From positions 1-37,485 of the forward strand of contig SYLG01000038.1 of assembly GCA_005808665.1 (NCBI GenBank): 37,485 nucleotides of DNA, written 5' to 3'. Below the pieces are notes generated by a model. It searched no databases and was not told where the DNA came from. It saw nothing but the letters and a program-made list of their open reading frames with translations. Shown here piece by piece: positions 1,589-37,485 of this stretch. This stretch comes from Planctomycetia bacterium. Lineage in GTDB: Bacteria; Planctomycetota; Planctomycetia; Gemmatales; Gemmataceae. A program made the position numbers and the translations under genes. How positions within the stretch are numbered: the stretch's first letter is position 1; each line of letters opens with the position of its first letter.

Positions 1589-2185
1589 TTATATCTTTGG
1601 TTGGAAGCCCCAGGGAGCGGCGGATTGCGGTTGCTCTATCATGGATTGAATACGAACTATGCGGCATTGCATAGGGTGGGTGTGGAAGGCGGTCATCACC
1701 AGGCAACCTGGTCGTGATTCCACCACAAGGAAAGCCAAACCAGGTAACCAGGGATCTGAACCGGTATGGTCGGGCCAGAATCGTAGCGACAATCCCCGCC
1801 CCCTGGCATCGGATTCAAGATCGTCATGAAATTGGGCATATTGCGAGGTGCTCAGTTGTTCGACCGAAACAATTGCCTCAAAGCGCCAGCCTGGAGCCAT
1901 GACGAAATGGCCTCCATGGCCCGATTCCGGACGAAGAGTCAATTGGCGGCCTCCCCGGGGTAGCCCATTACTAACGCTGGCCAGAACCTGGTGAAACTCC
2001 AACCGACCGAAGGACCATGAAATCGCATGGCCAGAAGGGGTAATCCGAAATACCAGGTTTTCCTTGCCCCGTGAAAGAACTTCGCGGGATTGCAACACCT
2101 GGAAAAGTTCAGGATGGGGCAACCGTTGAAATACCACCAGCTCCAAATCGCTGGTTTGGGGTTGGATGATGGCTTCTTTTTTCAC
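1589..2185 (-). CDS. DUF2617 family protein
   Basis: A 198-residue protein of unknown function. Its pattern fits my memory of the DUF2617 family of planctomycetes and actinobacteria: HPELF near the N-terminus, then RITPSGHAISW, and a C-terminal AFHTHPMQCRIVRIQS segment (family form close to AFHTFPDDxAIVKTQS). No signal peptide or membrane segment is visible, so it is probably cytoplasmic. The start is GTG at 2183-2185, overlapping the TGA of the upstream lyase-family gene in a GTGA junction. This implies translational coupling and a shared transcript. The role is unknown; the pairing with a PEP mutase/isocitrate lyase-type enzyme is the only functional hint. The family call rests on pattern recognition, not on a search. 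Confidence 0.65.
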   Translation of the reverse strand: MKKEAIIQPQTSDLELVVFQRLPHPELFQVLQSREVLSRGKENLVFRITPSGHAISWSFGRLEFHQVLASVSNGLPRGGRQLTLRPESGHGGHFVMAPGWRFEAIVSVEQLSTSQYAQFHDDLESDARGRGLSLRFWPDHTGSDPWLPGLAFLVVESRPGCLVMTAFHTHPMQCRIVRIQSMIEQPQSAAPWGFQPKI

Positions 2186-3066
2186 GGCTCCCTGGCCTTG
2201 AGCCGATCCTTTAGCCCCATGATCCCTTCCAGACCAAGAAGGGATTTTAAATCATGGAATGATCCTGTTTTTGCCGCCAAATGGTCCACCCGCCCTGTTT
2301 CCAATAGGTCCCTGGCAAGCTCACGAATTGCCTGGGCTGTAACCATAAGCGATTCAACGGGACATACCACAATGCGGTATCCGAGCCTTTCCAATTCCTG
2401 GGCGGGCAGGATTGGGGTCAAACCGCCGGAAAGCATATTGACGAGCATGGGTTTATTGAAAAGGTTGGGAATTTGTCGCAGTTCACTTTCCGATTGGGGT
2501 GCTTCGATAAAACCCACATCAGCTCCCGCTTCGAGGTAGGCATTCATCCGTTCGGCCGCCTTTTCGAAACCCTCCACAGCCCTTGCGTCGGTCCGGGCAA
2601 TCAGGACAAAATCAGGATCCTTGCGGGCATCCACCGCCGCCTTCCATTTCATCACCATATCGTCGCAAGAGATCAAACTTTTTCCAGGAAAATGTCCGCA
2701 CCTTTTGGGATGGGTTTGATCCTCAAGGAGCAAACCCGCCGCACCCGAGGATTCAAAAGTCCGGACCGTATGGGCCACATTATGCAGGTCCCCATAACCT
2801 GTGTCGGCATCCGCAACGACCGGAACGGAAACCCGTTGGGAAATACGCCGTACCTGGTCAGCCATTTGGTTCATTTCCAGAAGGCCAACATCGGGCAGGC
2901 CTAAAAGACTTGCCGCAGCACCAAACCCGCCCAGAAACAGCATCTCAAGCCCAGCTTGTTCCATAATCAAGGCGGAAAAACAGTCTTGGGCACCAAGGCT
3001 TAAAATGGCTTTTGGGCGAAGGAGGAGTTGGCGAAGGCGAGTCGTGGGTTTGGTGGCTGAAACCAT
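2182..3066 (-). CDS. Isocitrate lyase/PEP mutase family protein (methylisocitrate-lyase-like)
   Basis: A 294-residue soluble TIM-barrel enzyme of the ICL/PEPM superfamily, the size usual for PrpB. Visible motifs are the metal-binding VADADTGYGD (residues ~84-93), EDQ (115-117), the lyase loop KRCGH (121-125, catalytic Cys123), IARTDA and the C-terminal MLVNML strand. A Cys in the KRCGH loop is typical of isocitrate/2-methylisocitrate lyases, which cleave a C-C bond to give succinate plus glyoxylate or pyruvate. Phosphonomutases and oxaloacetate hydrolases of the superfamily usually lack this Cys. Substrate is not certain: no prpC or prpD neighbour is present, and other acid lyase or carboxyPEP mutase-like activities are possible. 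ATG start at 3064-3066. It is coupled by GTGA overlap to DUF2617 downstream. A short upstream reading frame and hairpin lie in its leader. Confidence 0.82.
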   Translation of the reverse strand: MVSATKPTTRLRQLLLRPKAILSLGAQDCFSALIMEQAGLEMLFLGGFGAAASLLGLPDVGLLEMNQMADQVRRISQRVSVPVVADADTGYGDLHNVAHTVRTFESSGAAGLLLEDQTHPKRCGHFPGKSLISCDDMVMKWKAAVDARKDPDFVLIARTDARAVEGFEKAAERMNAYLEAGADVGFIEAPQSESELRQIPNLFNKPMLVNMLSGGLTPILPAQELERLGYRIVVCPVESLMVTAQAIRELARDLLETGRVDHLAAKTGSFHDLKSLLGLEGIMGLKDRLKAREP

Positions 3067-3211: not shown

Positions 3212-3886
3212 CTATTCTTGCTTGAATTCGGCCTGAATGATTTCCGGGAGGCTATTGGCCGTTGAAACCAGGGCGACCAGGTTGCCCGGAGAAAGCCTGA
3301 CACGATAGGACAAATCAAGCGAGGTTCCCTGCTTGGCCGTGGCTATGCCAACCATCCTTGCCTCGACACAGTATTTCTCAAGCAAAGGCCTAAGAATCGC
3401 ACAGGGATCCTGGACGACCGTCATCCTTACGCTCAAGGATCCTGGCAGGAAATCACCCGGAGAGGTGGCCCGGTTAATAACCCCCATGATAAGTGCGGCA
3501 AGGATTACCACGGGAACTCCAAAAGCCATCAGGTGCCCATAGCCCGCTCCGCAGGCCATCCCCGCAGCTACGGCAAATATTACAAACGCCGTGTCTCTGG
3601 TATCCTCAACAACCGTGCGAAAGCGGACAATGGACAGGGCCCCCACCAATCCAAAAGCCCTGGCAACGCTATTTCCAATAACAAGGGTTACCAAGGTAAT
3701 CAAAACGGCAAGGAGGACCAGGGTTGTTCCCAAGGTGCGGGAATCATGACGGGATCCCACCGTAAAGCGGTGAATGACCGCCACCGTGATACCCAAACCC
3801 AAAGCCATAAAAAGCCTGGCGGCAAGGATTTCAAAATCGGGAAGGGGATCCGTGCCGCCAATGCCTTCACTCAACCACTGAAACAT
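3212..3886 (-). CDS. DUF4956 integral membrane protein
   Basis: A 224-residue membrane protein of the DUF4956 family. The signature is the strongly conserved stretch around residues 70-100: GNSVARAFGLVGALSIVRFR followed by TVVEDTRDTAFVIFA. About four hydrophobic helices precede a soluble C-terminal domain (from ~residue 140). I chose ATG 3884-3886 rather than an upstream in-frame start at 3958. It avoids overlap with the VTC gene, follows a good GGGAGGG ribosome-binding sequence, and gives a natural 20 bp spacing. DUF4956 genes often sit beside VTC-domain polyphosphate polymerases and CotH proteins, as here. A role as membrane partner of the polyphosphate polymerase is inference; the family has no firmly established function known to me. 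It is the last gene of the sigma-STK-CotH-VTC-DUF4956 run. Confidence 0.82.
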   Translation of the reverse strand: MFQWLSEGIGGTDPLPDFEILAARLFMALGLGITVAVIHRFTVGSRHDSRTLGTTLVLLAVLITLVTLVIGNSVARAFGLVGALSIVRFRTVVEDTRDTAFVIFAVAAGMACGAGYGHLMAFGVPVVILAALIMGVINRATSPGDFLPGSLSVRMTVVQDPCAILRPLLEKYCVEARMVGIATAKQGTSLDLSYRVRLSPGNLVALVSTANSLPEIIQAEFKQE

Positions 3887-3906
3887 CAAACCCTCCCGCC
3901 CATTTC

Positions 3907-4671
3907 CTAGGCGGTTTTGGAACCGGGATGCACTGCAATCCCAAGGACACTCATGCATCCCCGGTATTTGGAGTGGCCCCCGGGACGAAGTTTGAAATCG
4001 CGCATCAAAGCCCTCAATTGGCCGGGGATCTCGTCGAGGAACTTAAACTCCAGAACGCATTTACCGCCATGAACCGGTTTGCCTTGGGGTCCAAGGTCCA
4101 TGTCAAAACCCTTTGCAGCTTGCCCGCAAAGGTCGCGGTCCAGGGTAACCCGAATGTCGCCATTCTCTCCGATATAGGCTCTTCGTTCATAACTGATGAT
4201 GCAAACCGGTGCCAGGTTTTGGAGGCTGACTTCGGTCGAAAACCACCCGGATCCCATTAATTCTTCGGAAAGGTTGCTTTTATGTATTTCCATCCGATGT
4301 TTCAAAATGCGTTGCGCCCGTTTGGATTTGCGCTCGAGAAAAAGAGTATTCATCGAGCCATATTGCCTGATCCGGTATTTTCGGAAGGCATGGTTTCCGC
4401 ATCTGTGAAAAACATCCAACTGGGGTGTGTCAAAATAAAGACTTCGCACCTGGTATCCGCCCCCAATGCTATGGGGATCAGGTGCCAGGGATTCCTTCAG
4501 TCGGTCCTCAAACAACTGGGCCTCCTCCAGAGTCAACAGGAATTTTAGTTCCCGAGCCCCTTTGGGTTTTCCTGGAGTTAAGGCTTGCCGAAGGGAAGGT
4601 GACAAAGTGGCCGCTTGATTTTGGATCGATTGAACTGGGGGTGGTGAATCCGTGGTGCTTTCCCGAATCAT
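3907..4671 (-). CDS. VTC-domain polyphosphate polymerase
   Basis: A 254-residue protein with a VTC domain (triphosphate-tunnel fold), the family that makes polyphosphate from ATP in yeast Vtc4 and in bacterial homologues. Tunnel-strand motifs appear in order: RELKFLLT (~40-47), YQVRSLYFDTP (73-83), FRKYRIRQYG (96-105), LFLERKSKR (110-118), KHRMEI, SYERRAYIG (~165), RVTLDRDL, VLEFKF (~216) and HSKYRG near the end. The basic and acidic residues expected to line the tunnel are present. There is no membrane segment, so membrane attachment probably comes from the adjacent DUF4956 protein. The ATG start overlaps the TGA of the CotH gene (ATGA), indicating coupling. The stop is TAG, which shows that amber is a normal terminator here. 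Activity is inferred from family membership. Confidence 0.85.
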   Translation of the reverse strand: MIRESTTDSPPPVQSIQNQAATLSPSLRQALTPGKPKGARELKFLLTLEEAQLFEDRLKESLAPDPHSIGGGYQVRSLYFDTPQLDVFHRCGNHAFRKYRIRQYGSMNTLFLERKSKRAQRILKHRMEIHKSNLSEELMGSGWFSTEVSLQNLAPVCIISYERRAYIGENGDIRVTLDRDLCGQAAKGFDMDLGPQGKPVHGGKCVLEFKFLDEIPGQLRALMRDFKLRPGGHSKYRGCMSVLGIAVHPGSKTA

Positions 4672-6539
4672 TTTGCAAACCCTTGGATACTTGATTTGAC
4701 TTCGGCATTTTCCAATAAATACCGGGAGCGCTTTTCGGCAAACTCCCTTAAAGGAATCGCACCAGGCCCCCGACGCATTTGACCACCCGGCCTGTTTCTG
4801 GAGCCTTCCGGTGGAGGGGTGCGAAGGTCGGGTGCGGTTGCCTCCAGGAACTCATCATACCTTTCCAGTTTCCGTGTGTCATCCTTGACTTCCTTTTCAA
4901 TAAGGTTTCGCAAAAATTCGATTTGGGATCCGAGTCTTTCCCATGAAATATCCTCTTTGGCAAGGATATGGATGTTTTGAAGGTATTTTTGTCGAAAGGA
5001 AGGAACGGCTAGAATTTTACTTCGCAAAGGCTTACGGGGATCGTCAAGGCCAATTAAGGGGTCCAGTTCCACACCTTTGATATTCATCGCCCTGATTCCC
5101 CCCGGTCCACCAAATCCCCCTGGCATACCAGGGCCCATGGTACGCATTTGGGTGAACATTTGCCGTTGTTTACCATCCAGAAGTTGATTCATGCGTTCAT
5201 CTGTTTCTTTTTGCAACCGCGCCAAGGCAGAAATTTGGGCCGTGTTCAACCTGAGTTCCTGTTGAATCCCTTGAGATAGAATCTCGCCCGGTTTGGGGAA
5301 ATCCATTCCCATTCTTCCTCCCGGAGGTCCCCCCATTCCCGGACCCATGGGTTGACGAAATGCTTCGTTCATATCGTGGGGCACAAAATGAAAGACCCCC
5401 CCTTTATCTTTGTAAATGGAAAAGTCAGAAGCCCGGATCCAATACCCATCGGTGTTGATAAGGGCAACATCCAACGCCAAAAACCAAAGGAGCTGATCCA
5501 CATCCAAAATCGGCTTGATCGCCCCCTCCAACTTGTCCACCGGAGTTTGGTTCAGGATTTTGCAAAGGTGGATCAAATCTTTCCATGCCGTATCGTCCTT
5601 CCCTGATTTGAGTTCATAGCGGCGTTTGTAATCCTACGGATTCTCCCCAAGGTAATCAAGCCCACCCCCGCCACCAGGACTACCTCGAACTTTCCAGCGG
5701 GCCGGTTTTGCCTCGCCCCCTTTGTGCTTGTAACGGGAATCCACAAATTCCTTGTTGAATTGTTCCACATTCACATACAACCCCCAGCTCTCGCCATTGA
5801 TTACCACTTTGACAAAGTTTGCCCTTGGAGCGGGAAGGTATTTGTTGGCAATTTGGGAATAAAGAATGGTACTCATCATGGAGGCGTCTTCATGGCAATT
5901 GAGCAAATTGAGAGATTTCACCCCCATAACCCGTTGGCTGGAATCCTCAAGGTCGATGGAAATACTTAAGGATCGTTTGGAACCGGAGGGAACACCCATA
6001 TAAGAAGACATCCCCCGAAAATGGACCCCTACCCGACCCTTGTGGGTGGTGCCTTCAAGAGTCATTTTTGCGGGCACATCGACATCGGTTCCATGAAACT
6101 CCTCGAGTTCTTTTTCCCAATCGGGTAATTCAAAATCGAGGAAAAGGGTGCGGAGTGTGGTCAAATCGTAAAGGTCTTTGCCGGGAAAACGCTTTACGCT
6201 TTCAACGGTGACTTTTGGACCGGGAGTGCCTGTCGTTGGTGGGCCCATTCCACCTGGTCCACCCCGCCTGGGGCCAAAGCCCCCCCGGTAGTTTTCAAGG
6301 GCCAATCCTGCCCGGGCGGTTTTACGCTCTTCAATATCTAAAATCCTGTTTTTGTTTTTGTCGTAGGTTTTGAGGATTTTTCGTTCCTTACCCATTCCCG
6401 GAGGTCCAAAACCACCTGGAAAACCAGGTCCCCCAGGGGAACCGCCCGGACCTGCCCTGGGGAAGTCCTGAACGGGTTGCGCCGCTAAACCCGCTGTAAC
6501 CAGGCCCCATGCCACCAAACAAAATCCGATCATTTTCAC
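4668..6539 (-). pseudogene. Secreted CotH-family kinase, interrupted by an in-frame amber codon
   Basis: A 623-codon gene whose codon 302 is TAG (5634-5636). Before it (5634-6539) lie a signal peptide (~1-20), a Gly/Pro-rich stretch, an EF-hand loop at 60-71 (DKNKNRILDIEE, with ligands at loop positions 1, 3, 5, 9 and 12) and the N-lobe of a CotH kinase, ending GLDYLGENP. After it the same frame continues without loss: DYKRRYELKSGKDD, then DVALINTDGYWIRASDF and the catalytic-type PHDMNEAF (~387-394). An LTxxQ-like helical insert follows at ~421-462. No indel is needed, so it is a point change, an error or a read-through site. GTG 6537-6539 is the preferred start: GGAG lies 9 bp upstream, inside the end of the STK gene. 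CotH proteins phosphorylate extracytoplasmic proteins. The downstream ATGA overlap with VTC is intact. Confidence 0.85.
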
Positions 6540-6544
6540 CTTTT

Positions 6545-8833
6545 TTATCTCCGTTCAGGTCCGGGATAGGGTCCCCGGGGACCAGAAAAACCGCCTCGAA
6601 AAAGCATCTGCCCGGGAAGATTTACCAGGTTTCCCGTCATTTCCGACCATTTCACCAATTGTTCTTTGTTTAACAATGTAAGAATTTGAACCATACTGGA
6701 CCTTCGAAGCTCGTCCCGGGAGGATCGGACAAGCTCACCCTTTGGGCCGAGGTTCCCCTTGGGTTCCCCTTTGAAATCCCTGAAAGGGGGAAGGGGTGGA
6801 CCAAAACCGGGACCCTCTGGCGGTCGTGGGCCAAAACCGGGACCGTCAAGGGGTGGCGGACCAAAACCAGTGCGCCCTCCCTCCAAAAGGGTCCGGATTT
6901 TTTCCTTTTGCTCCGGTGAAATCGCCAAGGCAAGTATCACATCGGGCAAAAGAAAGGCCATCGGTCCTTGCGATTGCAAAGCCAATTGCCGAAAACGGCC
7001 CAGTTGATCGGGGCGTAGAATTGCCTGAAGGCTTGTTTCCCTTTCCTTGGCCATTTCCAAAAAACGCTGTTTTCGTTCTTCCCCGCTAAGCTTTCCAAAT
7101 TCGCGGAAACTTTCTTCGCGCCGGTTTCCCAGGTTCCCGCCAAGTTCACGAAGGGCAAGTTCCTGGGTTTCGGAAAGATGCAATTGCTCAAGGACAACCG
7201 GAGCATTCAATAGGTACAGGCTTCGGTCTCCCTGAAGCACCGCCAGATCTTCCAGAATTCTCCGGACACGGTCCCGGGTTATTGCCAGTTCGGTTTGGGA
7301 TGCAGGGTCGTCCCTTCGCAATTCGATGAATTCCTGATAATAGGCCAACGCCGTTTCCAAAAGCCTCCGCCTAACCCCCTCCATGGGGTGAATGGAAGCA
7401 AGTTCCTCCTCGGCCACCTCAATCAATTCATCCGCCGATCGTCTGGCAAGGTCAAATCGTTGATTTGCCTCAAGGGCCCGTTCTTTTTCCCGTTCAAGGG
7501 CTCGTTGCGTCAATGATTGTTGGCGCATAACCACAGCGGTTGAAATGCCAAGGACTACTACCGAGATGCATAGGACAATGACCGAGGCCCAAACCACCGA
7601 AGGATGCCTCCTGATCCATTTTCGACCATGGTCGATCAGGGAAGGCCTCCTGGCAAGGATAGGTCGGTTTTCGAGAAAGCGCCTAAGGTCTTCGGCAAGA
7701 TTAAAAGCATTGGCATATCTTTCTATAGGTAGTTTTGCCATCGCCTTCAGGATAATTGTTTCGATCTCCTCCGGGATGGATTTATCGATGGCCTGAAGGG
7801 CAACCGGTTCCTCGTGGAGGATTTTGTGGAGAAGGCTTTGCCTATCCTGGCCGGGAAAAGCGGGTTCATGGCAAAGCAATTCATAAAGCGTGGCACCCAG
7901 GGAGTAGATGTCGGTTCGATGGTCAACTTCAAGGCGCCTCCCCGCCGCCTGTTCCGGGCTCATATACCGAAGGGTCCCGAAAATGTCGCCCGTCTGGGTA
8001 AGCCCGCAGTCGGTGCTTACCTGAGCCAGTCCAAAGTCGGTAATCCAGGCATTACCCTTACCATCCAGCAGGAGGTTGGCAGGTTTAATATCCCGATGGA
8101 CAACCCCTGCCTCGTGGGCATATTCCAATGCTTCGGCAACCTGCAAACCCAACTTTGCCACGGCCCGGTGGTTGTCAATGGACCGGATGGATCGGCTGGT
8201 TTGGAGCCCGCTTTGAGGAATGGTTGAGGTAGATTTAAGATCGGTAGTGTTACTCAAATGGCTGGAAGGCAATCCAAGTCTTAGTTCTTTTATCACTACA
8301 TCCAGGGGGCGTCCGTCGATGATCTGCATGGCATAATAGTGCACACCACGATCACAGCCCACGGCATGAACCGGCACGATATTTGAATGGTGAAGTTGGG
8401 CGGCGGCATGAGCTTCGGTTTGAAACCGCTGGAGCTGTTTTGCATTCAAGGCCGCTGCAAAGGGTAAGACTTTGAGGGCAACACGACGGCCCAAGCTGAG
8501 TTGGACCGCCTCATAGACTACCCCCATACCCCCCCTGCCGATTTCCCGGACAATTCTGAAATCCCCCAACGGTTCACGGGGGATCTCTGTTTTCGGGGAA
8601 ACTTCGACATTTTGTCCCATCCTTCCCGCCGCATGGGCAAGGTCGATTCCGTCAAAAAATTCGGCTAATTGATTAGTAATGTCGGGACATCGGTCAAAAT
8701 ACGATTTCCTCTGGGGTGTTTTTCCCAACTCCCATTCGGCAAGGTATTCCCGGGCCAATGTTAAAATCCGGGGATCGTCCGGTGCACTATCATCACAATC
8801 GTTCTTTGGAAGGGTTTCCCTGGTATCGCTCAC
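6545..8833 (-). CDS. Membrane Ser/Thr protein kinase (PknB/Hanks type) with LTxxQ-like extracytoplasmic region
   Basis: A 762-residue kinase. The cytoplasmic catalytic domain has the glycine loop IGRGGMGVVYEA (~98-109), VALKVL with the ATP-binding Lys near 121, HRDIKPANLLLD with catalytic Asp near 248, DFGLAQ near 266 and MSPEQAAG near 291. A single transmembrane helix lies at ~413-436. The extracytoplasmic part starts with a probable coiled coil. It then has a helical region (~548-654) with repeated LS/LRPDQ/ISPEQ segments like LTxxQ (Spy/CpxP-type) motifs, followed by a GFGPPP-type Gly/Pro-rich tail. I chose GTG 8831-8833 because it forms a GTGA overlap with the sigma-factor stop; the in-frame extension to 8881 would run deep into that gene. 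The CotH gene starts 5 bp downstream. The kinase is probably a sensor for the ECF factor or envelope state (inference). Confidence 0.9.
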   Translation of the reverse strand: MSDTRETLPKNDCDDSAPDDPRILTLAREYLAEWELGKTPQRKSYFDRCPDITNQLAEFFDGIDLAHAAGRMGQNVEVSPKTEIPREPLGDFRIVREIGRGGMGVVYEAVQLSLGRRVALKVLPFAAALNAKQLQRFQTEAHAAAQLHHSNIVPVHAVGCDRGVHYYAMQIIDGRPLDVVIKELRLGLPSSHLSNTTDLKSTSTIPQSGLQTSRSIRSIDNHRAVAKLGLQVAEALEYAHEAGVVHRDIKPANLLLDGKGNAWITDFGLAQVSTDCGLTQTGDIFGTLRYMSPEQAAGRRLEVDHRTDIYSLGATLYELLCHEPAFPGQDRQSLLHKILHEEPVALQAIDKSIPEEIETIILKAMAKLPIERYANAFNLAEDLRRFLENRPILARRPSLIDHGRKWIRRHPSVVWASVIVLCISVVVLGISTAVVMRQQSLTQRALEREKERALEANQRFDLARRSADELIEVAEEELASIHPMEGVRRRLLETALAYYQEFIELRRDDPASQTELAITRDRVRRILEDLAVLQGDRSLYLLNAPVVLEQLHLSETQELALRELGGNLGNRREESFREFGKLSGEERKQRFLEMAKERETSLQAILRPDQLGRFRQLALQSQGPMAFLLPDVILALAISPEQKEKIRTLLEGGRTGFGPPPLDGPGFGPRPPEGPGFGPPLPPFRDFKGEPKGNLGPKGELVRSSRDELRRSSMVQILTLLNKEQLVKWSEMTGNLVNLPGQMLFRGGFSGPRGPYPGPERR

Positions 8834-9444
8834 GGCTGACCCCCAAACGCTTTTTTCAGCTTGGCGATTCCACGCAACCATAATTTTTCCACACTGTCCA
8901 CACTTTTTTCCATCCGATTGGCAACCTCAGGGAAGGTCAATCCCTCGAAGTGCCTCAATAAGATTACTTTTTGATAATCCTCGGAGAGCTTCGCCAAAGC
9001 CTTGGCCACCAAAAGCGATTGTTCTGCCTGGTTGACTTGTTGACTGGGAGAACCTTGAGGGTCAATGGGAAGGATGCCAAAGTTGTTGGCGGAATGGTCC
9101 AGGTCGTTACCAATTTCAACCTCCAGGCGAATGTCGCGGGCCTTGGTCCCTACATAGTGACGCAATTGTCGTGCCAAGGTTCCCGCCATGATGCGCCGAA
9201 GCCATTGGATAAATTGGCCTTCGGCTTCTCCGTGAAACGAGGGGAATTGTCTATGGGCATCGAGGAAAACCTCCTGGACCAAATCAGAGGCGTCAACTTT
9301 TCCTTGGAGTTTTTTACCAATTTCGATGCGCGCCAAAAGCCTGAGGTAATCCCGGTAAAGCTCCATGAGTTGGCCCAGTTGGGCCAAATCCCCGGTTTTG
9401 GCGGCGGCAAGCAGACCATCTGCGTTTGGGTGAGTGGCATTCAT
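8830..9444 (-). CDS. ECF-type RNA polymerase sigma factor (kinase-linked planctomycete group)
   Basis: A 204-residue sigma-70 family ECF factor. Region 2 carries the KVDASDLVQEVFLDAHR helix and the EGQFIQWLRRIMAGTL segment. Region 4 carries LSEDYQKVILLRHFEGLTF, followed by the helix-turn-helix PEVANRMEKSVDSVEKLWLRG. No anti-sigma gene is adjacent; instead the gene is coupled by GTGA overlap to a Ser/Thr kinase. This is the arrangement known for kinase-associated ECF groups in planctomycetes, where phosphorylation is thought to replace an anti-sigma factor. The start ATG 9442-9444 (MNATHP) is preferred to an upstream in-frame codon at 9549, because homologues begin just before the GLLAAAKTGD segment. 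No good Shine-Dalgarno sequence precedes it. It heads the run that ends with DUF4956 and may control its own operon (inference). Confidence 0.9.
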   Translation of the reverse strand: MNATHPNADGLLAAAKTGDLAQLGQLMELYRDYLRLLARIEIGKKLQGKVDASDLVQEVFLDAHRQFPSFHGEAEGQFIQWLRRIMAGTLARQLRHYVGTKARDIRLEVEIGNDLDHSANNFGILPIDPQGSPSQQVNQAEQSLLVAKALAKLSEDYQKVILLRHFEGLTFPEVANRMEKSVDSVEKLWLRGIAKLKKAFGGQP

Positions 9445-9656
9445 GGGATATTGCCTGAAAGGAGGGGCCGTATTGTATTTTAGTGACCAAAACCAATCCA
9501 GACCCGCCCTGCATTTTGCCCATATTTGGGAAAAATTGATGAGAATCACCCGCTACGACTTGCGTTTCCCAATGGTTTTACAGGATTGGTCTACTGTACC
9601 GCAGCCAATGGACCAGATTTCAATCGAATGGATGGATGGACGAAAGGTACAATTGA

Positions 9657-21854: not shown

Positions 21855-22556
21855 ATGTCCATCGGTATTATCGGTACGAAAATTGGTATGACTCAGGTTT
21901 ACGACTCTACCGGAAATTGTGCCCCGGTTACGGTCATTCAGGCCGGTCCCTGTCCCATTCTTCAGGTTCGCACCCTTGAAAAAGACGGTTACGAAGCCAT
22001 TCAGGTGGGGTATAAGGACAAAAGTCGGAAAAGGGCCACCCGGGCCGAACGGGGCCATGTATCCGAAGAAATGGAATCCAAACGCCGCAAAAGGCTTCCT
22101 GCCGGAACCGCCCTTCCCCCCAAAGCTAACTGTGAGCCCCAAGAATTCATTCGTGAGTTTCGTTTTGAAAAGGCCGCCGAGCACAAAGTTGGAGACAACC
22201 TGACTGTTGCGGGGATCTTTGGGGAAACCAAACGGGTCGATGTCATTGGCACCAGCAAAGGCCGGGGTTTTACGGGTGGCATGAAACGGTGGAACTACCA
22301 CGGTCTACCGGCTAGCCACGGCGTGAAAAAGGTCCATCGGTCGATCGGTGGAACCAATGTGGCCTCCAACCGGGGTTTTGGCCGTCCCAAAAAAGGAAAG
22401 AAAATGCCCGGTCATTACGGGGCCGACCAGGTAACCATTCGCAATTTGGATGTGATCAATATCGACCCCGAAACCCATATTATCCTTGTCAAAGGAGCGG
22501 TTCCAGGCCCCAATGGCGGTTTGGTTATTGTTCGCCCAACCAACAAGATCAAGTAA
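21855..22556 (+). CDS. rplC: 50S ribosomal protein L3
   Basis: A 233-residue protein with the full L3 plan: MSIGIIGTKIGMTQVYDSTG, then VTVIQAGPCPILQVRT. The central loop reads KGRGFTGGMKRWNYHGLPAS, then HGVKKVHRSIGG, and the C-terminus VKGAVPGPNGGLVIVRP. L3 nucleates early large-subunit assembly and contacts the peptidyl-transferase centre. Length and motifs argue for a functional gene. It stands alone: neither rpsJ before nor rplD after it is present, and a rho-independent terminator follows immediately. The ATG is fixed by the conserved N-terminus, although no Shine-Dalgarno sequence is visible. Confidence 0.96.
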   Translation: MSIGIIGTKIGMTQVYDSTGNCAPVTVIQAGPCPILQVRTLEKDGYEAIQVGYKDKSRKRATRAERGHVSEEMESKRRKRLPAGTALPPKANCEPQEFIREFRFEKAAEHKVGDNLTVAGIFGETKRVDVIGTSKGRGFTGGMKRWNYHGLPASHGVKKVHRSIGGTNVASNRGFGRPKKGKKMPGHYGADQVTIRNLDVINIDPETHIILVKGAVPGPNGGLVIVRPTNKIK

Positions 22557-29914: not shown

Positions 29915-32900
29915 TCATTGGGATGTCGGGTTTTCAGGTAAACGGAAAGGATTTTCCCTGTTTCGGGAATGGGGTTTTCCGGGTGCTTGTCCGTTTCGCA
30001 CCCAGGAAGGTGCAAGCAGGCTCGCTGCCAAAAGGCCCCAAACCTGATCCTTGCCCGAGGTCTTTTCTTTTGGAAACTGAACCGGGGACAACGCCTGGTC
30101 CTGAAAACCATTGTCTTTCCAATCGGAAAGCCAGACTTGATCCCGTTCCTCCAACAATATTTCCGCATAGGAGGATGTATCAATCACCTTGGCCCCAAGG
30201 AAAGGGTTTGGATTTTGGGTGATTTCCATAGTGGAGAACCCATTGAGAGTTTGGCTTTGAGGTGCCAAGGGAGCCACCACTGCAACTTTGGCCGGAACCT
30301 TGGCTGCCGCAGCACCGGCTTTTTTTGCCTTCTGTAATTGAAGTTCGCCCAGGATTCCTTTCAAAAGGCGATTGATGGGTTTGTCGACCAGCTCCTTTTT
30401 AATTGGGCCATTGATCAGGGTGGTAACCAGTTCACTTGCTTCGAAACTCATCCTGTCAAGTATGGTTTGGGCTTCCTCCAAACCAAGAGTCTCCATCGAC
30501 TGCCGAAGCAGGGTCAACATATCCACGGGCCCACCCCGTCCGACCACCGGGAAAAATTGGGTGCCGGTCGTGATGGCCTCCTTCAAGTCCTTGGCAATGG
30601 TGTTCACCAAAGCCACCAATTTTTTGCCTTCAGGCGTTTCCCATGCTAGGGGTAATCGCTCAGGATCATCGGAGGAAAGGTTTACATTGGTGATGCCCTC
30701 GCCTACCAAAAGCACCAAAAGGTCGGTAACCGAATGGCTGATACCCTCAGAAACTGTTCCAGCCAAAACATTCCCAACCCCCGCACTGGTTCCTCCCAAA
30801 AGGGAACCCACCACCTGCTGGGCTGTGTTACTAACCGCGGCTGAGGCTACCTCAGTGGTGGGGGTGACAGGGGGTAGGTTTTCGGTAATGACCTGTTCCC
30901 CCCTGAAATCGAGGCTCAATGTCAATCCTTCCTTGGATACGGAGCCCACTGGTATTCCTGAGGATGCAACCGCTCCGTTGATGGAGACAGTAGGGTTTAC
31001 CACGGTGCCATCAGCGCGAACCATCGAGGCCCCCGCAAGCACGCGACCTCCGCCCACGCCATAGAGCTGCATGGTGAAGGTGCTGGCTTGGGACGAAGGG
31101 ATGATGACGAGGTCCAAGGCTCCTTTTTGGGATAGGGTTGCCGAAGCATTTTCCCGAATGGCCCCCTGGGAACCTGTGTTTCCTATTTGCTGGGACGCAG
31201 AGTCGGTGAGGACAAAATCCACGGGATCAAAATAAAAAACATAAAAGTCCTGGACCAGGTCTCCACCAAGGGCAGCCAAAAGACTTTCCGTGAGTGACAT
31301 GGAAATATTGTCCCTCACTTCCTCAAACTCCTCATCCGTTTCTGCGGTCACAATTTGCTGGGTAAAAATCGTTGCCAAGGTGTTGTCAAGAACATCCACA
31401 ACATCATTACTGACCGGCCGAACGATTTCTGTTTCGATGATTTCAAAAGATATTTCCGCCGAGAAGGCTCCTCCAGCAACGGTAATGTCTTCCGGAGAAA
31501 CGGCAACCAGGAAAACTTCCTGCCCTGTGGTAACCATAAATTGGAGTTTATCTCCATTGGGACCAAGGATTCCACTTGCAACCTGCAAAGCACCATTTTC
31601 GTCCCGGACAAACGCCCTTAGTTCTCCGGAAACTCCCGTGATGTTGATAACCACCTTGGCATCTGCAGGGGCCTGGAACCGGACGACATCCTGATCCCCC
31701 GCACCCAAATCGCCTTGAAGCCTGGTGACCCCTTCCAGTGAAACATCAAGCAAATCAGCCGTGTCAAAGGTATTCCCCAAATCGTCCACCACATCCGAAC
31801 CGGAGGTGATGTCCAGTTTCCAACCGCCTGTACTTTCCCCATAGCCCGAAACGCTGATGCGATACACTTTGCCGGCCCGAACCGATATATTCAGGGCACT
31901 GGACGGGTCATTTTTGCCATCAACGGTGGTATCATCTGATAGTCCAAGGGATTGATCGGAATCCGTGAAAACAGCAAGTGTCGGATCCACCGGGGTATCT
32001 CCATCCCCAGAAAGCCGCAATTGCAGGACCCCATCCGCAACCGGAACGATACGGAGCCAATCCACATCTCCCATGGCTTCGATGGTGCCTGTCAGGGTGG
32101 CAAGGTTTCCTTCCGCCAAAGTAAATGCTTTGGCTTTGGTAGCGACGCTGGGATGGTCATCCACGATGGGAGTGATCCCCAAGGAATATTCCCCAAGGGT
32201 CCCGCCCGCAGAGGTTGCCACTACCCAATAAGTCTCCCCGGCCTTAATCTGCATTTCCAACAGACTGTTGCGGTTGGTTGCCGAGGCATCATTGTTCCTT
32301 GAAATCAAGGCACCATCCGAGGCCCGGTAGATCAAGAGGAAGGGATTGAGGGCGCCGGAAACCTGGTTAAGGGCGATCGAGATGGTGCCATCCTGGGTGG
32401 GCCGATATACGAATAGGTCCAAGTCGTTGGCAGATTCGATCAGGCCCCCGGCCGAGGAACGCAACCCCGCCAGCCGCAGGTTCGCACCAAAGGCGGGAAG
32501 GTCGCCAATATCGTCGATTCGAAACGATGCTTCCAGGGAAAAGGCCCCAAGGGTGCCCACAGAGCCTGCCGCCTGAAGGTAAACCTCCTGGCGGGCCGTT
32601 ACGGGAATCTGGACATAGGAATCCAGTCCACCCCCAGAATCTTCATCCATGGCACGAACCTGGGTAACCCCTGTGCCTTCATCGGTTGTGTAGACAACCA
32701 GGAACGGGTTGAGTTTGGAATCAGGGGTTCGTAACAGCTTGACACCCAGGAACCCGGAGGCAGGGGCCACAACCCGGACAATATCGCTATCTCCCAATTG
32801 ACCAATAACGCCTCCAAGCTTGCCCGCAAAAACGGTCGAAGCCCCGGTGGCATCCTTGACTGGTAGAAGTGGCAATTCCGGTCCCGTTTTGGCCAACTGA

Positions 32901-35900
32901 ATCGTCCCTGGGTAATCGTCGTTGTTAACCTGTTTCACCACTGAAAGGGATAAAGAATAGTCCCCAAGGGTTCGGAAAAATCCAGAGGCTCTAAGGAATA
33001 ACCGCTGCCCCGGCTTGACATCAAAAACGAGGGCACTAGCCAACCCCTTGGCGGCATTGTCGTTTTGGGCAAGGATGTTTCCATCCGAATCGATTAGTTC
33101 CAGGTAGGGGTCGACAGCGGAACCCTGTTTTGGAGTCAGTTTGGCCAAAATCTTGAGCGGTTCCGTGTTGGCGGGCCAATCCAAAACGAATGTATCCGTA
33201 TCGCCACCAAAATCAGCCGTTCCATCCATGCTAACCGGACCCAGTTCCGGATTCTCCAATACTCCCAAGAGGTTGGCTGGATAATCATCCTTGATGACCT
33301 CCACCTTTACCACAATGGCTTTAGCCGAGAACGAGTAGGAACCCTTGCCTTCAAACCTTTGGATCGAAAGGAAATAGGCCTCCCCTTCAACCAAGTCGCC
33401 AACAATCAGGGAACCTGTTCCAGGCCCGCTATCATTGTCGGAGGCAATCTCCGAGTAGGTTGGCCCACTGCCAAAAAGGGTCAGGTAGGGATTCAATTTG
33501 GATCCAGGACTCGCTTCCACCTGAAAAATCCATTGGGCGGTGGACGAAGCCACGAACCGGACAATATCCTCGTCGGTTTTAACCTCGATGGTTCCCTCAA
33601 AAGTGAGTTTGTCAGCCGCTCCCAATTGATATTGTTTATTGAGTTCCGCCAATTGGATTGAGTTGGGAATATCATCATCCGCAGCCAACCGGTTTTCCAA
33701 AAGATTGAGTCGGTAGGGCCTATTTTCCTGGGAGCCATCCCCACCGATTTCGAAGAGATAGGTTGTGCCGGGCAAAGCCAGAAACTCAACTATAGCCTCA
33801 ATCCCGGAACTCGACCCACTTTCGGTAGCAACCAACACCGGTTCGCCCATTTCATCGATGCGATAAACATTAAGGGAAAAGTCTACCTGTTCGCCGGTTG
33901 AAACAGGAGCAACAATCGACTTGTATGCTCCATAGGGAGCCATATCGTCTTCATCGGCGGGGGTTGTCCAGGAGAAAACATCATGGTCACCAAAGGTTTC
34001 CAACACCCCAAACAAGGGAGTTAAGGGTACGGTCTTCGCTGCTTTGGCGGGATCCAGGAGATCCGTGTTATCGTCGGTGACAATAGCCAGTTCCACACTG
34101 TATTTCCCTGTGGCCCCGTCTGATCCTTCTACGCGAAGGAATAATTCCTGGCCAGCAACCACCGTAAATCGGCCCAGTTTAAGATTGGCTGCCTGCCCGG
34201 GAATTGAGTCCATGGCAGCCGCAAAAACGGCCGATTCTTCCAACCCTTCGTTACCCGCAATCCTGATTTTTAACAGGCCCGTTTGGGTAATCGGGAACCT
34301 CAAAAGATCCGTGTCCCCTGCCAGCTCCACCTTGCCGGCTATTTTGGCCTCGACCGGGATCTGACCTGCGGTTCCCGGGCTGGTTCCAAAGTCATCCCTG
34401 ACGATCACGGCATCGTAATCACCAACGGTTCCTTCCAATCCCACAAAAAGGATGCGAGTTGTCTTCAAGGATTCCAAGGGGACATTCAGGGTTACAGGGG
34501 CCCCGGCCAATCCCTGGACAACACCAAGAGTTTCCAGGTTTTCTCCAAAAACATGGATCTCGGGAATCAGGTTGGGAGCGGTGACTCTTGGGCTCATGCG
34601 AATAAGGTAATTGCCGATGGCTTTGGGGTCAAAGTTGACCAATTCCTCCACCCCGGTTTTAATGGTCCCCCGGACAACCGCCTTGCCATTTGAATCCAGT
34701 ACCAGATTGGGTGGCGGAGGCGGGGGCGGAACCGATGCCGGAGTGTCCGGATTGAATAGACCACCAAGTTTCCAGGAACCTGTTCCACCCAAACCAGATT
34801 CATCCCCGCTGCCCCCAACCCGCAAGAAATAGGTCCGGTCAGCCATCATATAAAACCGAACCGAGGCCGAGCCATCGGCCGCCGCATTCGCCTGGAATGC
34901 CAAGGCCTTGCCCTGATCATCAAACGCCGTCAAGCGGACATCCAACTTACTGCCGGTGTCCGGCCTGGCAGTGGCTTCAGCCCAACCAGGCTTGGACGAA
35001 CTGATACGCAGATTATCGAGGTCCGTCAGGGTGGTTCGTTCTCCATTGGCCGAAAAGGCATTGTCAATGAAGTCCAGGGATTGGGCTTTGCCAAAGGAAT
35101 CCCCCTGAGGGTCAGTAATCGCATCGATGGTTTTTGCGGTTAAGGTGAATTCCGTTTTGGCAGATCCGGAAATCCTCAAATGCCGGGCATCTTCCAGGGG
35201 TTGAATCTTAAGAATCCCTTGCCCCGTCGGCTTCGCCAGGGCCGAGGCAAGACGCTCACCTGCCTCAGTGAACCATTCCAAAAGGACAGGATGGGTTACA
35301 CCCGAAACGCTGATTTCAAGGCCAAAACCGGTGGCGGGTACGGTGAACCAATCTTCATCCTTGTCCTGATGGAGGAGTCCCTGTTGGGAAACCTCACCCG
35401 TAGCCGACAGTACCAGGTTCAAAGCCTTGGCAGCTTCATTAACCAGGTCGCCAGCCAGGTTTAAATCGATTGGGGTAAGGGTGTTGCCAGCAAGATCGAG
35501 AACTCCCTCACCAACCACCACCACGGTATAGGAAAGCTCGGCCGCTGGCCGGAGGATGACTTGATATACGGAGCCTTCACCCGTGAAGGAAAGGAGTTCG
35601 GTTCCGCTTGGAAGGACAAGTTTGGAGGCGTCAAATCCCGATACGGCTTCGGAAAGCTGGATTTCCACGCCAAGGTCTGAATAATTGGGATTGGGGCCTG
35701 CTTGATAGGTTACCACCACTTGGGAAACCTTGGGGGCCTTGGTATCAATTTGAAGAATGACCTCTTCGGAATAGGCACTCCGTACGCCTGTCAAAGAAAC
35801 AGATCGGGCCTTTACGGGGTAGGATCCATCCGCGAGTGTTCCCGGAATTTCAAAGGTCCACTTGCCTTCCTGATTGGGAATGGCTTCTCCAAGGACCTTC

Positions 35901-37485
35901 CCCTTGACCGATATGTCAACGGCTACGCCGGGGTTTCCTGCCCCCTGCAAAACGATTTGGCCCGTAGAGGTAACCCAATCGAGCATACTTCCCGAGTTGG
36001 GGGAAAAACCGAGGAGCGAGGGAACGGGTGGGACAAGAGTGTTCAGGGTGACCACAACGGAATCAGAAAGGAGGCTTTGGTTACCCGCCACATCAATGGC
36101 CTGGAAAGTAAAGGCGTTGCCTCCCTCTGCCATGGAAACATTCAAACTCCATTTGCCAAGGGAGTCAGCCACAATCGCATCAAGGGGTGTGCCATTAACG
36201 AAGACCTTAATTGTTGCAAATGCTTCCCCGACACCTTGCAAAAGAGGGCGAACATCACTTGTATGCAGGTCTCCCGGTCGGCCGGTATCCCTGTCAAATT
36301 GAACCAGCTCTGGAATCCCGGGCAACGAAAGGTCCAACCGAACGGTGAACTTGGCCGAAACGGGCCCTTTGTTTCCTGCCAAGTCGGTTGCTTTCGCAAG
36401 AAGGTCATTGTTGCCTTCTTTCAAAAACCATAGGGACGGAACCGATAAATCCAGGGTCCAATTCCCGGCTTCATTCGTAATAGCTGTACCCAAACTGTTA
36501 CTGCCTATGAAAACCTCAACAGTCGCCCTGGGTTCCGCCCGGCCATGAACACTAATTTCTCGCGTGTTGACGATTCTATCCCCGTCAAGTCCAGTATCAG
36601 GACTGACCCGATCCATCACCGGCTCCGGGGGAGCTGTTATATCAGTGGATTTCACTTTAATGGAAACACTGCCCGTTGCAACATTGTAGTTGGTGGTCGA
36701 TGCTGCCATGACATTCAAGGTATGCGTGCCTAAATTCAAAACGGTGCCTAAGGGAGGATCGTAGGTGAGTGCCCCACTGGCAGATCCCCCGGAAACGCCT
36801 GACACAGAAGCATTGAGCTCAAAAATACTGAGGGGGAGGCCTTGGGAAATGTCGGTTGGATTGGACCAGGAAATGTTTTGATTCGCCTTGATGATGTTGG
36901 CAGTGGTTGTCGGAGGCGTGAGGGTGTAGTTACCCGCACTGCTCCCCCCGAGGGTAAAACCAGCAAGGGAGACAGTAACACCAATGGCAGCATTGGCAGA
37001 AGCAAAGGTGCCAACCGGTGCACCACCCAAGGTTACGGTATCTCCCGATACAACTCCCACCAGGGCCGAAGAACTGGTGTTTAGGATTGATGCTGAGGTT
37101 CCATCATAAACCTTTTCGCTTGCCGTAGTGCCGGAAACGGTGAGACCCCTGGCCGTGATGTTGGCCGTCGGACCCGGTTGCGTTAAAGTGTAGTTACCCG
37201 AATCCGCACCCGATAGCGTCATGCCAACTACCGTCACATTCAGGTCAGTTCCAATCCCCTTGGAAGGGAATGTTCCCGTTGCCGACGAAACCAAAAGACT
37301 AACATCATCCCCACCAACCTTGTTCACCAAAGCAGAGGATCCCGTCCCAAGGATTGCGGTAATGTTTCCATCGTACACCTTGTTGCTCGCCGTTGTGCCT
37401 GAAACGGTGAGACCCCTGGCCGTGATGTTGGCCGTCGGACCCGGTTGCGTTAAAGTGTAGTTACCCGAATCCGCACCCGATAGCG
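29915..37485 (-). CDS. Giant surface protein: MBG, Ig-like and PPC-like repeats (5' end outside window)
   Basis: The frame is open from the stop at 29915 to the window edge, so over 2,500 residues are visible and the true start lies outside. The order from the N-terminal side is: MBG/YDG repeats of 89 residues (to ~36870), an MBG-like linker (SWSNPTDISQG), and four Ig-like adhesin domains (~36650-35460: GNWTLDLSV, GKWSLNVSM, GKWTFEIPG, then a CHU-type LSEAVSGFDAS). About eleven PPC-type domains follow (~35400-31420), each with a DxDxxRF or DTDTFVLDW-like strand and a G-x-YSL end. A long C-terminal region with helical segments ends PFRLPENPTSQ. I noticed no cysteine. A poly-proline PPPPPPP joins two blocks. 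It is probably cell-surface anchored or secreted; the ligand is unknown. It is related in its MBG units to the protein at the left end. Confidence 0.85.
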   Translation of the reverse strand, partial: LSGADSGNYTLTQPGPTANITARGLTVSGTTASNKVYDGNITAILGTGSSALVNKVGGDDVSLLVSSATGTFPSKGIGTDLNVTVVGMTLSGADSGNYTLTQPGPTANITARGLTVSGTTASEKVYDGTSASILNTSSSALVGVVSGDTVTLGGAPVGTFASANAAIGVTVSLAGFTLGGSSAGNYTLTPPTTTANIIKANQNISWSNPTDISQGLPLSIFELNASVSGVSGGSASGALTYDPPLGTVLNLGTHTLNVMAASTTNYNVATGSVSIKVKSTDITAPPEPVMDRVSPDTGLDGDRIVNTREISVHGRAEPRATVEVFIGSNSLGTAITNEAGNWTLDLSVPSLWFLKEGNNDLLAKATDLAGNKGPVSAKFTVRLDLSLPGIPELVQFDRDTGRPGDLHTSDVRPLLQGVGEAFATIKVFVNGTPLDAIVADSLGKWSLNVSMAEGGNAFTFQAIDVAGNQSLLSDSVVVTLNTLVPPVPSLLGFSPNSGSMLDWVTSTGQIVLQGAGNPGVAVDISVKGKVLGEAIPNQEGKWTFEIPGTLADGSYPVKARSVSLTGVRSAYSEEVILQIDTKAPKVSQVVVTYQAGPNPNYSDLGVEIQLSEAVSGFDASKLVLPSGTELLSFTGEGSVYQVILRPAAELSYTVVVVGEGVLDLAGNTLTPIDLNLAGDLVNEAAKALNLVLSATGEVSQQGLLHQDKDEDWFTVPATGFGLEISVSGVTHPVLLEWFTEAGERLASALAKPTGQGILKIQPLEDARHLRISGSAKTEFTLTAKTIDAITDPQGDSFGKAQSLDFIDNAFSANGERTTLTDLDNLRISSSKPGWAEATARPDTGSKLDVRLTAFDDQGKALAFQANAAADGSASVRFYMMADRTYFLRVGGSGDESGLGGTGSWKLGGLFNPDTPASVPPPPPPPNLVLDSNGKAVVRGTIKTGVEELVNFDPKAIGNYLIRMSPRVTAPNLIPEIHVFGENLETLGVVQGLAGAPVTLNVPLESLKTTRILFVGLEGTVGDYDAVIVRDDFGTSPGTAGQIPVEAKIAGKVELAGDTDLLRFPITQTGLLKIRIAGNEGLEESAVFAAAMDSIPGQAANLKLGRFTVVAGQELFLRVEGSDGATGKYSVELAIVTDDNTDLLDPAKAAKTVPLTPLFGVLETFGDHDVFSWTTPADEDDMAPYGAYKSIVAPVSTGEQVDFSLNVYRIDEMGEPVLVATESGSSSGIEAIVEFLALPGTTYLFEIGGDGSQENRPYRLNLLENRLAADDDIPNSIQLAELNKQYQLGAADKLTFEGTIEVKTDEDIVRFVASSTAQWIFQVEASPGSKLNPYLTLFGSGPTYSEIASDNDSGPGTGSLIVGDLVEGEAYFLSIQRFEGKGSYSFSAKAIVVKVEVIKDDYPANLLGVLENPELGPVSMDGTADFGGDTDTFVLDWPANTEPLKILAKLTPKQGSAVDPYLELIDSDGNILAQNDNAAKGLASALVFDVKPGQRLFLRASGFFRTLGDYSLSLSVVKQVNNDDYPGTIQLAKTGPELPLLPVKDATGASTVFAGKLGGVIGQLGDSDIVRVVAPASGFLGVKLLRTPDSKLNPFLVVYTTDEGTGVTQVRAMDEDSGGGLDSYVQIPVTARQEVYLQAAGSVGTLGAFSLEASFRIDDIGDLPAFGANLRLAGLRSSAGGLIESANDLDLFVYRPTQDGTISIALNQVSGALNPFLLIYRASDGALISRNNDASATNRNSLLEMQIKAGETYWVVATSAGGTLGEYSLGITPIVDDHPSVATKAKAFTLAEGNLATLTGTIEAMGDVDWLRIVPVADGVLQLRLSGDGDTPVDPTLAVFTDSDQSLGLSDDTTVDGKNDPSSALNISVRAGKVYRISVSGYGESTGGWKLDITSGSDVVDDLGNTFDTADLLDVSLEGVTRLQGDLGAGDQDVVRFQAPADAKVVINITGVSGELRAFVRDENGALQVASGILGPNGDKLQFMVTTGQEVFLVAVSPEDITVAGGAFSAEISFEIIETEIVRPVSNDVVDVLDNTLATIFTQQIVTAETDEEFEEVRDNISMSLTESLLAALGGDLVQDFYVFYFDPVDFVLTDSASQQIGNTGSQGAIRENASATLSQKGALDLVIIPSSQASTFTMQLYGVGGGRVLAGASMVRADGTVVNPTVSINGAVASSGIPVGSVSKEGLTLSLDFRGEQVITENLPPVTPTTEVASAAVSNTAQQVVGSLLGGTSAGVGNVLAGTVSEGISHSVTDLLVLLVGEGITNVNLSSDDPERLPLAWETPEGKKLVALVNTIAKDLKEAITTGTQFFPVVGRGGPVDMLTLLRQSMETLGLEEAQTILDRMSFEASELVTTLINGPIKKELVDKPINRLLKGILGELQLQKAKKAGAAAAKVPAKVAVVAPLAPQSQTLNGFSTMEITQNPNPFLGAKVIDTSSYAEILLEERDQVWLSDWKDNGFQDQALSPVQFPKEKTSGKDQVWGLLAASLLAPSWVRNGQAPGKPHSRNRENPFRLPENPTSQ
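37134..37485 (-). repeat. 267 bp tandem MBG repeat units with an identical 85 bp block
   Basis: Bases 37134-37218 are identical over 85 bp to 37401-37485, at an offset of exactly 267 bp (89 codons), and the second copy is cut by the window edge. The block encodes the GADSGNYTLTQPGPTANITARGLTV segment boundaries of two successive MBG units (given here only to mark the ends: residues GADSG to LTVS). The next unit inward (~36870) is diverged, so this pair is recent, was homogenised by conversion, or reflects assembly. Confidence 0.8.

Follow-up and report, generated by a model that had tools for sequence, protein, structure and literature searches.

Why would a planctomycete place an ECF sigma factor and a transmembrane kinase beside genes for a CotH kinase, a probable VTC polyphosphate polymerase and a DUF4956 membrane protein, and do the five genes act as one regulated unit? 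The question arises from a 37,485-nt stretch of DNA (contig SYLG01000038.1 of assembly GCA_005808665.1, Planctomycetia bacterium, Gemmataceae), called the window here. On re-check, the gene order, coordinates, minus strand and junctions of the original prediction were all exact, and Pfam agrees with the family claimed for each of the five genes. The features are as follows.

9482..9508, minus strand: predicted ECF-type promoter GGCGG-N16-GTCACT; boxes and spacing conserved upstream of SIG at 14 loci
8830..9444, minus strand: ECF sigma factor (SIG), 204 aa; Pfam Sigma70_r4_2 (8.6e-11) and Sigma70_ECF (1.3e-10), also Sigma70_r2
9286..9288, minus strand: Ser53 codon of SIG, predicted phosphosite from motif alignment
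6545..8833, minus strand: transmembrane Hanks-type Ser/Thr kinase (STK), 762 aa; Pfam Pkinase (2.2e-41)
4668..6539, minus strand: interrupted gene for a CotH-family secreted kinase; Pfam CotH in both halves (5.8e-15 and 1.3e-17)
5634..5636, minus strand: in-frame TAG at CotH codon 302 of 623, a sense codon in intact relatives
3907..4671, minus strand: VTC-domain protein, probable polyphosphate polymerase, 254 aa, no transmembrane helix; Pfam VTC (1.9e-28)
3212..3886, minus strand: DUF4956 membrane protein; Pfam DUF4956 (PF16316, 3.6e-13)

The SIG and STK genes overlap by GTGA and the CotH and VTC genes by ATGA, with 5 bp between STK and CotH and 20 bp between VTC and DUF4956. Compared with congener G002, each of the five shows purifying selection (dN/dS about 0.07 to 0.16).

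The original prediction was staked on the five genes co-occurring beyond this genome, and a gene-neighbourhood survey failed to refute it. The complete set is present in 11 other planctomycete genomes from 10 genera in three families (f1, f2 and f4). Because it recurs in these genomes the set is beyond chance, with gene order and orientation scrambled among them. The sigma factors of nine of the 11 fall in the window's well-supported clade, and those of G060 and G094 branch just outside it. Outside the class, none of 76 VTC loci carries this SIG or STK; VTC-DUF4956, with or without CotH, persists there alone. VTC and DUF4956 are the tightest pair (48 of 53 loci in the class, 53 of 76 outside), and CotH lies within 3 kb of them at 34 class loci and 46 outside. 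Several readings of the set were rejected. First, SIG-STK is not an exclusive marker of the cluster, since the same sigma clade also occurs alone or with other genes, without the trio of CotH, VTC and DUF4956. Secondly, a single origin of the linkage is not supported by the sigma tree, on which linked members are scattered and well-supported branches force at least eight changes. Third, the downstream PEP-mutase-like and DUF2617 genes were rejected as members of the unit: they adjoin it in 3/3 congeners, yet the survey found no such adjacency in the other families.

A conserved two-box motif, GYGGCGG-N15-CGTnACT, precedes SIG in the window, about 35 bp before its start codon, and at 13 other loci. 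Of 35 SIG loci, 14 have the motif, and at the other 21 its exact form was not found. In a held-out test it occurred at 6 of 27 loci versus a background of 0.6% (p about 1.5e-8). The spacing of 16 gave 44 matches, versus 9-27 for each of 13 other spacings, and the strict form gave 18 matches in 20 genomes, 11 of them at SIG, CotH or VTC. At two loci where SIG-STK and CotH-VTC-DUF4956 are divergent (G105 and G401), a second copy faces CotH. In G034 and G072, with SIG unlinked, a copy precedes VTC, and in G075 one sits between STK and VTC. Across the class, the exact promoter was found at only 5 of 98 trio genes. Counts of sigma-70-type promoters and intrinsic terminators were not above those in shuffles. 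The window genome contains five exact matches, only one of them at this gene set. A wider regulon there was considered and rejected: of the other four matches, the one that was read (C63:65123) lies in a pyrD-like open frame, and none was shown to be a target. Such a two-box promoter, conserved upstream of SIG and of candidate target genes, is as expected of an autoregulated ECF operon. The promoter motif is a new finding, and the sigma factor would bind it. The single copy before SIG in the window can, judging by its position, serve the whole operon, and a single SIG-DUF4956 transcript is possible because gaps are at most 20 bp and no motif copy intervenes. The earlier claim of one regulated unit is supported by the recurrence across three families, the ECF-type promoter upstream of SIG and the second copy facing CotH at the two divergent loci.

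How would the kinase control the sigma factor? In the alignment, region 2.2 of SIG reads D51-A-S53-D54 instead of DAED. Ser53 takes the position of the phosphorylated Thr of EcfP and EcfK (PMC8999054, PMC8103513, PMC13147305) and is predicted to be the equivalent phosphosite. Of 15 linked sigma factors, 13 have Ser at this position and none has the canonical Glu. The phosphosite is not universal, as Ala replaces Ser in one linked sigma factor (G075) and in seven unlinked members. Next to SIG, as a kinase-activated ECF sigma factor requires, is a Hanks-type kinase with intact catalytic motifs (VALK, HRDIKPAN and DFG). It comprises a cytosolic kinase domain (93-373), one transmembrane helix (418-436) and a C-terminal LTXXQ-like ectodomain. 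EcfP-PknT of Vibrio parahaemolyticus and EcfK-PknS of Xanthomonas citri likewise pair an adjacent transmembrane Hanks kinase with an ECF sigma factor, and in EcfP/EcfK (ECF43) DAED is also altered, with Ser or Thr in the third position. However, EcfP/EcfK carry STTA/QATE, whereas DASD keeps both flanking Asp, and a sigma factor of this kind may be partly active when unphosphorylated. Membership of ECF43 was rejected because its noncharged QTTA/STTA-type motif is absent. The candidate targets also differ, being VTC, CotH and DUF4956 here and polymyxin resistance or T6SS genes in the EcfP/EcfK systems. Planctomycete ECF genes also adjoin STK genes in ECF59, ECF61, ECF62 and ECF217 (PMC8999054), and a serine phosphosite has been proposed for ECF59 and the original ECF60 (PMC8103513).

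The ectodomain matches LTXXQ in 8 of 10 STK orthologues; that of the window STK itself has no Pfam match. An LTXXQ-like ectodomain fits envelope sensing, as far as domain resemblance goes. The predicted envelope-sensing kinase-sigma switch is favoured by this ectodomain and by the phospho-acceptor-like Ser in place of the usual Glu. The ECF-STK pair also occurs away from the cluster. Linked CotH proteins of G075 and G094 carry the kinase ectodomain at their N-terminus, and in G109 it is found in a separate protein encoded next to VTC-DUF4956. A more ambitious reading, which we consider rather improbable, is a dedicated extracytoplasmic phosphorylation programme. Here the kinase, sharing its ectodomain with the CotH that it induces, would sense the state of the envelope and activate the sigma factor by phosphorylation. 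The polyphosphate polymerase and its membrane partner, switched on in this way, would then feed or adjust the phosphorylation that CotH carries out beyond the cytosol, and the ectodomain common to both kinases would provide feedback.

The preferred reading, held with somewhat better than even confidence, is a self-activating, phosphorylation-controlled ECF sigma operon that covers all five genes. A signal at the LTXXQ-like ectodomain would activate the membrane kinase, which would phosphorylate Ser53 of the observed DASD motif in region 2.2 and so provide the negative charge required by core RNA polymerase. The sigma factor would then read the conserved motif upstream of its own gene, and one transcript from SIG to DUF4956 would close a positive feedback loop. 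Cytosolic VTC would make polyphosphate from nucleotide triphosphate, with DUF4956 as its membrane partner or regulator, and exported CotH, where intact, would phosphorylate envelope or matrix proteins. Certain observations weigh against this mechanism: a PPK1 gene is also present in the host genome and VTC is patchy (46 of 119 relatives), SIG-STK occurs without the trio, and the CotH gene is interrupted in this genome and has decayed in that of a congener.

The VTC protein matches the yeast VTC4 profile (E 4.3e-11), and its AF2 model (pLDDT 91) has yeast Vtc4 as best fold match (E 3.8e-14). Among 24 VTC sequences, ExK, KxRxRxY, ExK, KxR, YxRxA, RxTxD, ExK and SKY are invariant, so that the triphosphate-tunnel (TTM) fold comes with conserved basic and acidic tunnel residues. 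The protein is a probable polyphosphate polymerase, going by motifs and model, and polyphosphate would be its output. It shares the catalytic-domain fold and tunnel motifs of the yeast VTC complex. Unlike yeast Vtc4, it has no SPX domain, and a separate DUF4956 protein replaces the fused transmembrane helices. That protein, a PF16316 match, has several N-terminal transmembrane helices and a C-terminal ACT-like domain; its AF2 model (pLDDT 82) weakly matches ACT domains and the MgtC C-terminal domain. VTC and DUF4956 might instead make polyphosphate and, like the yeast complex, pass it through the membrane; on the outer side CotH would then phosphorylate envelope proteins with polyphosphate or with exported nucleotide. 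The tight VTC-DUF4956 pairing with CotH often nearby, the soluble VTC, membrane DUF4956 and secreted CotH, and the match to channel-coupled Vtc4 agree with such a vectorial phosphate donor. It is nevertheless unlikely: an MgtC-like protein with transmembrane helices and an ACT-like regulatory domain does not resemble a known channel (PMC12345266), many VTC-DUF4956 pairs have no nearby CotH, and CotH decays in the window's genus while VTC-DUF4956 stays.

CotH is where the original prediction fell short. Its place, family and order were right, but the open frame was not, the in-frame TAG having been overlooked; a genome search found it independently ("1 TAG"). The N-terminus is signal-peptide-like, an EF-hand-like loop lies at residue 60, and the stop splits the CotH domain ahead of the catalytic-loop Asp (codon 364) and the metal-site Asp (codon 389). 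The domain and both catalytic Asp are encoded, but not in a single open frame, as they are in congener G002 and 12 other relatives (alignment A5). At the stop position, intact G002 (locus L033) reads ...GENPEDYK..., with Glu in place of TAG; in congener G001 (L032), all that is left of CotH between STK and VTC is a decayed remnant. Reading TAG as a sense codon was rejected because the VTC and DUF4956 genes of the same operon end in TAG. A draft-assembly or base-call error is possible though doubtful: CotH dN/dS is low on both sides, with the half past the stop as constrained as the half before it, and one base change from a Glu codon (GAG) is enough to give TAG, but the same gene was lost independently in G001. 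Were the stop real and the unit being lost from the genus, with no present function here, both the TAG and the G001 remnant would follow. That account is very unlikely: dN/dS is low both for the four uninterrupted genes and for the CotH halves flanking the stop, and the promoter is retained in 3/3 congeners. The claim of two active kinase/polymerase outputs is unsupported here, with CotH truncated in the window genome and decayed in a congener. With CotH truncated, the working output of the operon is probably VTC and DUF4956. Four more intact CotH genes lie elsewhere in the host genome, and one of them could possibly aid the output.

Is the set new? The trio is already known from Gram-positive Pel loci (PMC7112168; S. 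intermedius SIR_1592-1594, PMC12345266), so the claim that the complete set is undescribed stands only for its coupling to the kinase: in the literature searched, no report was found linking an ECF-kinase pair, ECF groups included, to a VTC-CotH-DUF4956 operon. Pel loci have the same three contiguous families, a secreted CotH and an MgtC/ACT-like membrane protein. The planctomycete loci differ in adding the ECF-STK pair and its promoter, and in having no PelG in any of 14 genomes with the set or most of it. There is therefore no complete pel operon in these genomes; no pel genes were noticed among the window ORFs. A Pel accessory locus was rejected, as contiguous pelDEA_DAFG was not found. No such three-gene arrangement outside Pel was found in PMC12345266; contrary to that survey, the planctomycete loci are such cases. 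Like its streptococcal counterpart in Pel loci, the trio might tune an envelope polymer, with the ECF-kinase pair switching it on surface stress and polyphosphate secondary. In Gram-positives CotH, the polyphosphate polymerase and DUF4956 adjoin Pel genes (PMC7112168), and in S. intermedius Pel rises when the DUF4956-like gene is deleted and falls when cotH is, with aggregation reduced in both mutants; PMC12345266 reports nothing comparable for the VTC gene. Such matrix or exopolysaccharide control is conceivable but not favoured, with PelG missing and no polysaccharide synthase noticed among the window ORFs.

The widespread trio here stands behind a predicted phospho-switched sigma factor, and with the promoter defined, the chain from signal to output becomes testable. 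One kinase-linked planctomycete ECF group thereby gains a candidate promoter and a candidate regulon, and the trio is shown to exist outside Pel loci. Lastly, C. perfringens NELoc-2, in the passages of PMC2879425 consulted, differs from the planctomycete set in that no STK is mentioned and it is not an ECF-kinase operon. As described there, a sigma region-2 gene is nearby, and behind each of two VTC genes comes a gene for a membrane protein with the annotation tubulin/FtsZ, which we read as probably DUF4956-like, and then CotH.

The five-gene set of planctomycetes is a real and recurrent variant of the known CotH-VTC-DUF4956 trio, controlled by an ECF sigma factor and a kinase. In the window, which is an entire contig (G000:C4) of a draft genome of 4.48 Mb in 186 contigs, the order, strand and exact junctions of the original prediction were confirmed on the sequence and all five families were borne out by Pfam. 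Its intact CotH gene was not, as an in-frame TAG had been overlooked. The genes are as follows:

9444-8830, (-), ECF sigma factor (SIG)
8833-6545, (-), transmembrane Hanks-type Ser/Thr kinase (STK)
6539-4668, (-), CotH, secreted kinase family
4671-3907, (-), VTC, probable polyphosphate (polyP) polymerase
3886-3212, (-), DUF4956, membrane protein

PEP-mutase/isocitrate-lyase-like and DUF2617 genes (1589-3066) lie after DUF4956, co-directional with it, in 3 of 3 congeners, and were not found adjoining the set in other families. The genome also encodes PPK1.

VTC was found in 46 of 119 relatives and in 103 of 392 genomes sampled from the phylum. The 128 VTC neighbourhoods retrieved were searched with profiles built on the proteins of the window, giving 53 VTC genes in the class Planctomycetia (window included) and 76 outside it. 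DUF4956 lay within 1.5 kb of VTC on the same strand in 48/53 and 53/76 cases, respectively, and CotH within 3 kb in 34/53 and 46/76. SIG and STK were both within 10 kb of VTC in 13/53 and 0/76, and one further such locus (G039) was visible after the adjoining stretch was retrieved. The expected co-occurrence beyond the window's genome was thus seen, with all five genes together in 11 genomes (G002, G032, G039, G059, G060, G075, G094, G102, G105, G401 and G469) spanning 10 genera and families f1, f2 and f4. The order was not fixed. Among the arrangements listed, only G002, G032 (with two CotH genes), G059 and G469 keep the window order; CotH is last in G075 and G094, G060 reads CotH-VTC-DUF4956-SIG-STK, and the arrangement is convergent in G102 and divergent in G105 and G401. 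Locus L179 (G010:C1:589500-606500) carries SIG-STK-CotH-DUF4956 with no VTC detected nearby, in a genome without a VTC match in the survey of relatives; thus the DUF4956-CotH pair can persist without the polymerase.

Profile searches usually identified one strong member of the window's sigma clade per genome, also where VTC is absent; in such genomes the SIG-STK pair is found by itself or next to different genes, CotH at times among them. Linkage to VTC is scattered over the sigma tree, in which the G060 and G094 sequences branch just outside the main clade. These patterns point to a single ECF-STK lineage repeatedly kept beside, or brought to, the trio.

A promoter-like motif, GGCGG-N16-GTnAC, was noticed by eye upstream of SIG in eight loci. 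In a scan of all data, spacing 16 gave 44 matches and 13 other spacings gave 9-27. The motif occurred at 6 of 27 held-out SIG loci against a 0.6% background (p ~1.5e-8), a statistic to be read knowing that the motif was first spotted in part of the data and that related genomes are not independent. Aligned sites gave the consensus GYGGCGG-N15-CGTnACT, and an exact match was missing at 21 of 35 SIG loci. The divergent loci of G105 and G401 have one copy toward SIG-STK and one toward CotH-VTC-DUF4956, G075 has a second copy in the STK-VTC interval, and G034 and G072, where SIG is unlinked, have a copy upstream of VTC. Outside the class, one of 137 trio genes had a match. The sole copy in the window's gene set is at 9482-9508, from which we infer that the five genes can form one autoregulated transcript. 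In locus L173 (G097:C40:1-7483), a contig without VTC, SIG-STK is divergent from CotH with a copy facing each; VTC and DUF4956 of that genome are on a different contig.

The strict pattern matched 18 times in 20 whole genomes, and 11 of these sites were at SIG, CotH or VTC; most of the remaining seven were inside open frames, and one was upstream of a secreted Gly/Arg-rich protein. At L203 (G024:C239:13382-13410) a strict copy precedes, by ~126 bp, the gene of a protein of 458 aa whose N-terminus resembles a signal peptide and whose long, repetitive body is rich in Gly, Arg and Phe; this protein might belong to the regulon or be a substrate of CotH. At L207 (G401:C1:7509667-7509695) the copy lies ~102 bp ahead of an open frame of 362 aa, membrane dipeptidase-like by reading, which is possibly a regulon member, or the copy may be there by chance.

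CotH is broken in the window's genome. The TAG (5634-5636) is codon 302 of 623, and a genome search independently reported it. The catalytic-loop Asp (codon 364) and metal-site Asp (codon 389) are both downstream. In congener G002 CotH is intact, with Glu in place of the TAG; in congener G001 all that is left of the gene, between STK and VTC, is a decayed remnant. Since dN/dS against G002 is alike before (~0.14) and after (~0.12) the stop, three accounts of it are left: a very recent origin, readthrough or an error in the assembly. Four other CotH genes in the genome are intact.

Relatives of CotH have an EF-hand-like loop and match (E 5.5e-11) spore coat protein H, whose structure has been solved. 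The window VTC matched yeast Vtc4 in profile comparison (E 4.3e-11), and Vtc4 was also the top fold match (E 3.8e-14) of its AF2 model (pLDDT 91). The AF2 model of DUF4956 (pLDDT 82) has TM helices and an ACT-like domain; it matched ACT domains and the C-terminal domain of MgtC weakly, in agreement with the MgtC/ACT description of SIR_1592, the DUF4956-like gene beside Pel in S. intermedius.

The C-terminal part of STK contains LTXXQ-like repeats; Pfam LTXXQ was matched in 8 of 10 orthologues (best 7.1e-8) and not in the window STK itself. The ectodomain profile matched the CotH N-terminus in G094 (E 3.6e-22) and G075 (7.8e-19), as well as a protein adjoining VTC-DUF4956 in G109; across eight genomes it matched no more than 2 to 5 places in each. 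For the window's own pair, the STK ectodomain showed no significant similarity to CotH.

The STK kinase domain is intact in 12 orthologues. In EcfP and EcfK, a Thr in an altered DAED motif is phosphorylated by the adjacent Hanks kinase (PMC8999054, PMC13147305), and Ser is the proposed phosphosite in ECF59/60 (PMC8103513). The window sigma factor has Ser in DASD (residues 51-54). By alignment count, 13 of the 15 linked sigma factors have Ser at the Thr position, as do 11 of the 20 others; none in either group has Glu there. Because DASD retains both Asp, its sequence suggests that the phospho-switch may be partial.

Genes for CotH, a polyP polymerase and DUF4956 have been described as accessory to the Pel loci of Gram-positive bacteria (PMC7112168). 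In S. intermedius, deletion of the DUF4956-like gene raises Pel and deletion of cotH lowers it, aggregation being reduced in both and retained on VTC deletion (PMC12345266). The authors of that study reported no trio synteny outside Pel, unlike the planctomycete loci, which have it; PelG was absent from 14 of 14 planctomycete genomes tested. The open-licence literature yielded no description of the five-gene set or its promoter; the promoter is newly seen and the trio itself already known. PolyP output, sigma phosphorylation and the role of CotH are proposals.

Elsewhere in the window, translations indicate a ribosomal protein L3-like gene (21855-22556) followed by sigma-like and metallopeptidase-like genes and not by the rest of the ribosomal operon. 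Both ends (79-1548 and 29915-37483) fall within genes whose repeated secreted-protein domains are alike (DGNxSA...GDLVTLGG...GTFAS), and a repeat may therefore be where the contig breaks on each side.
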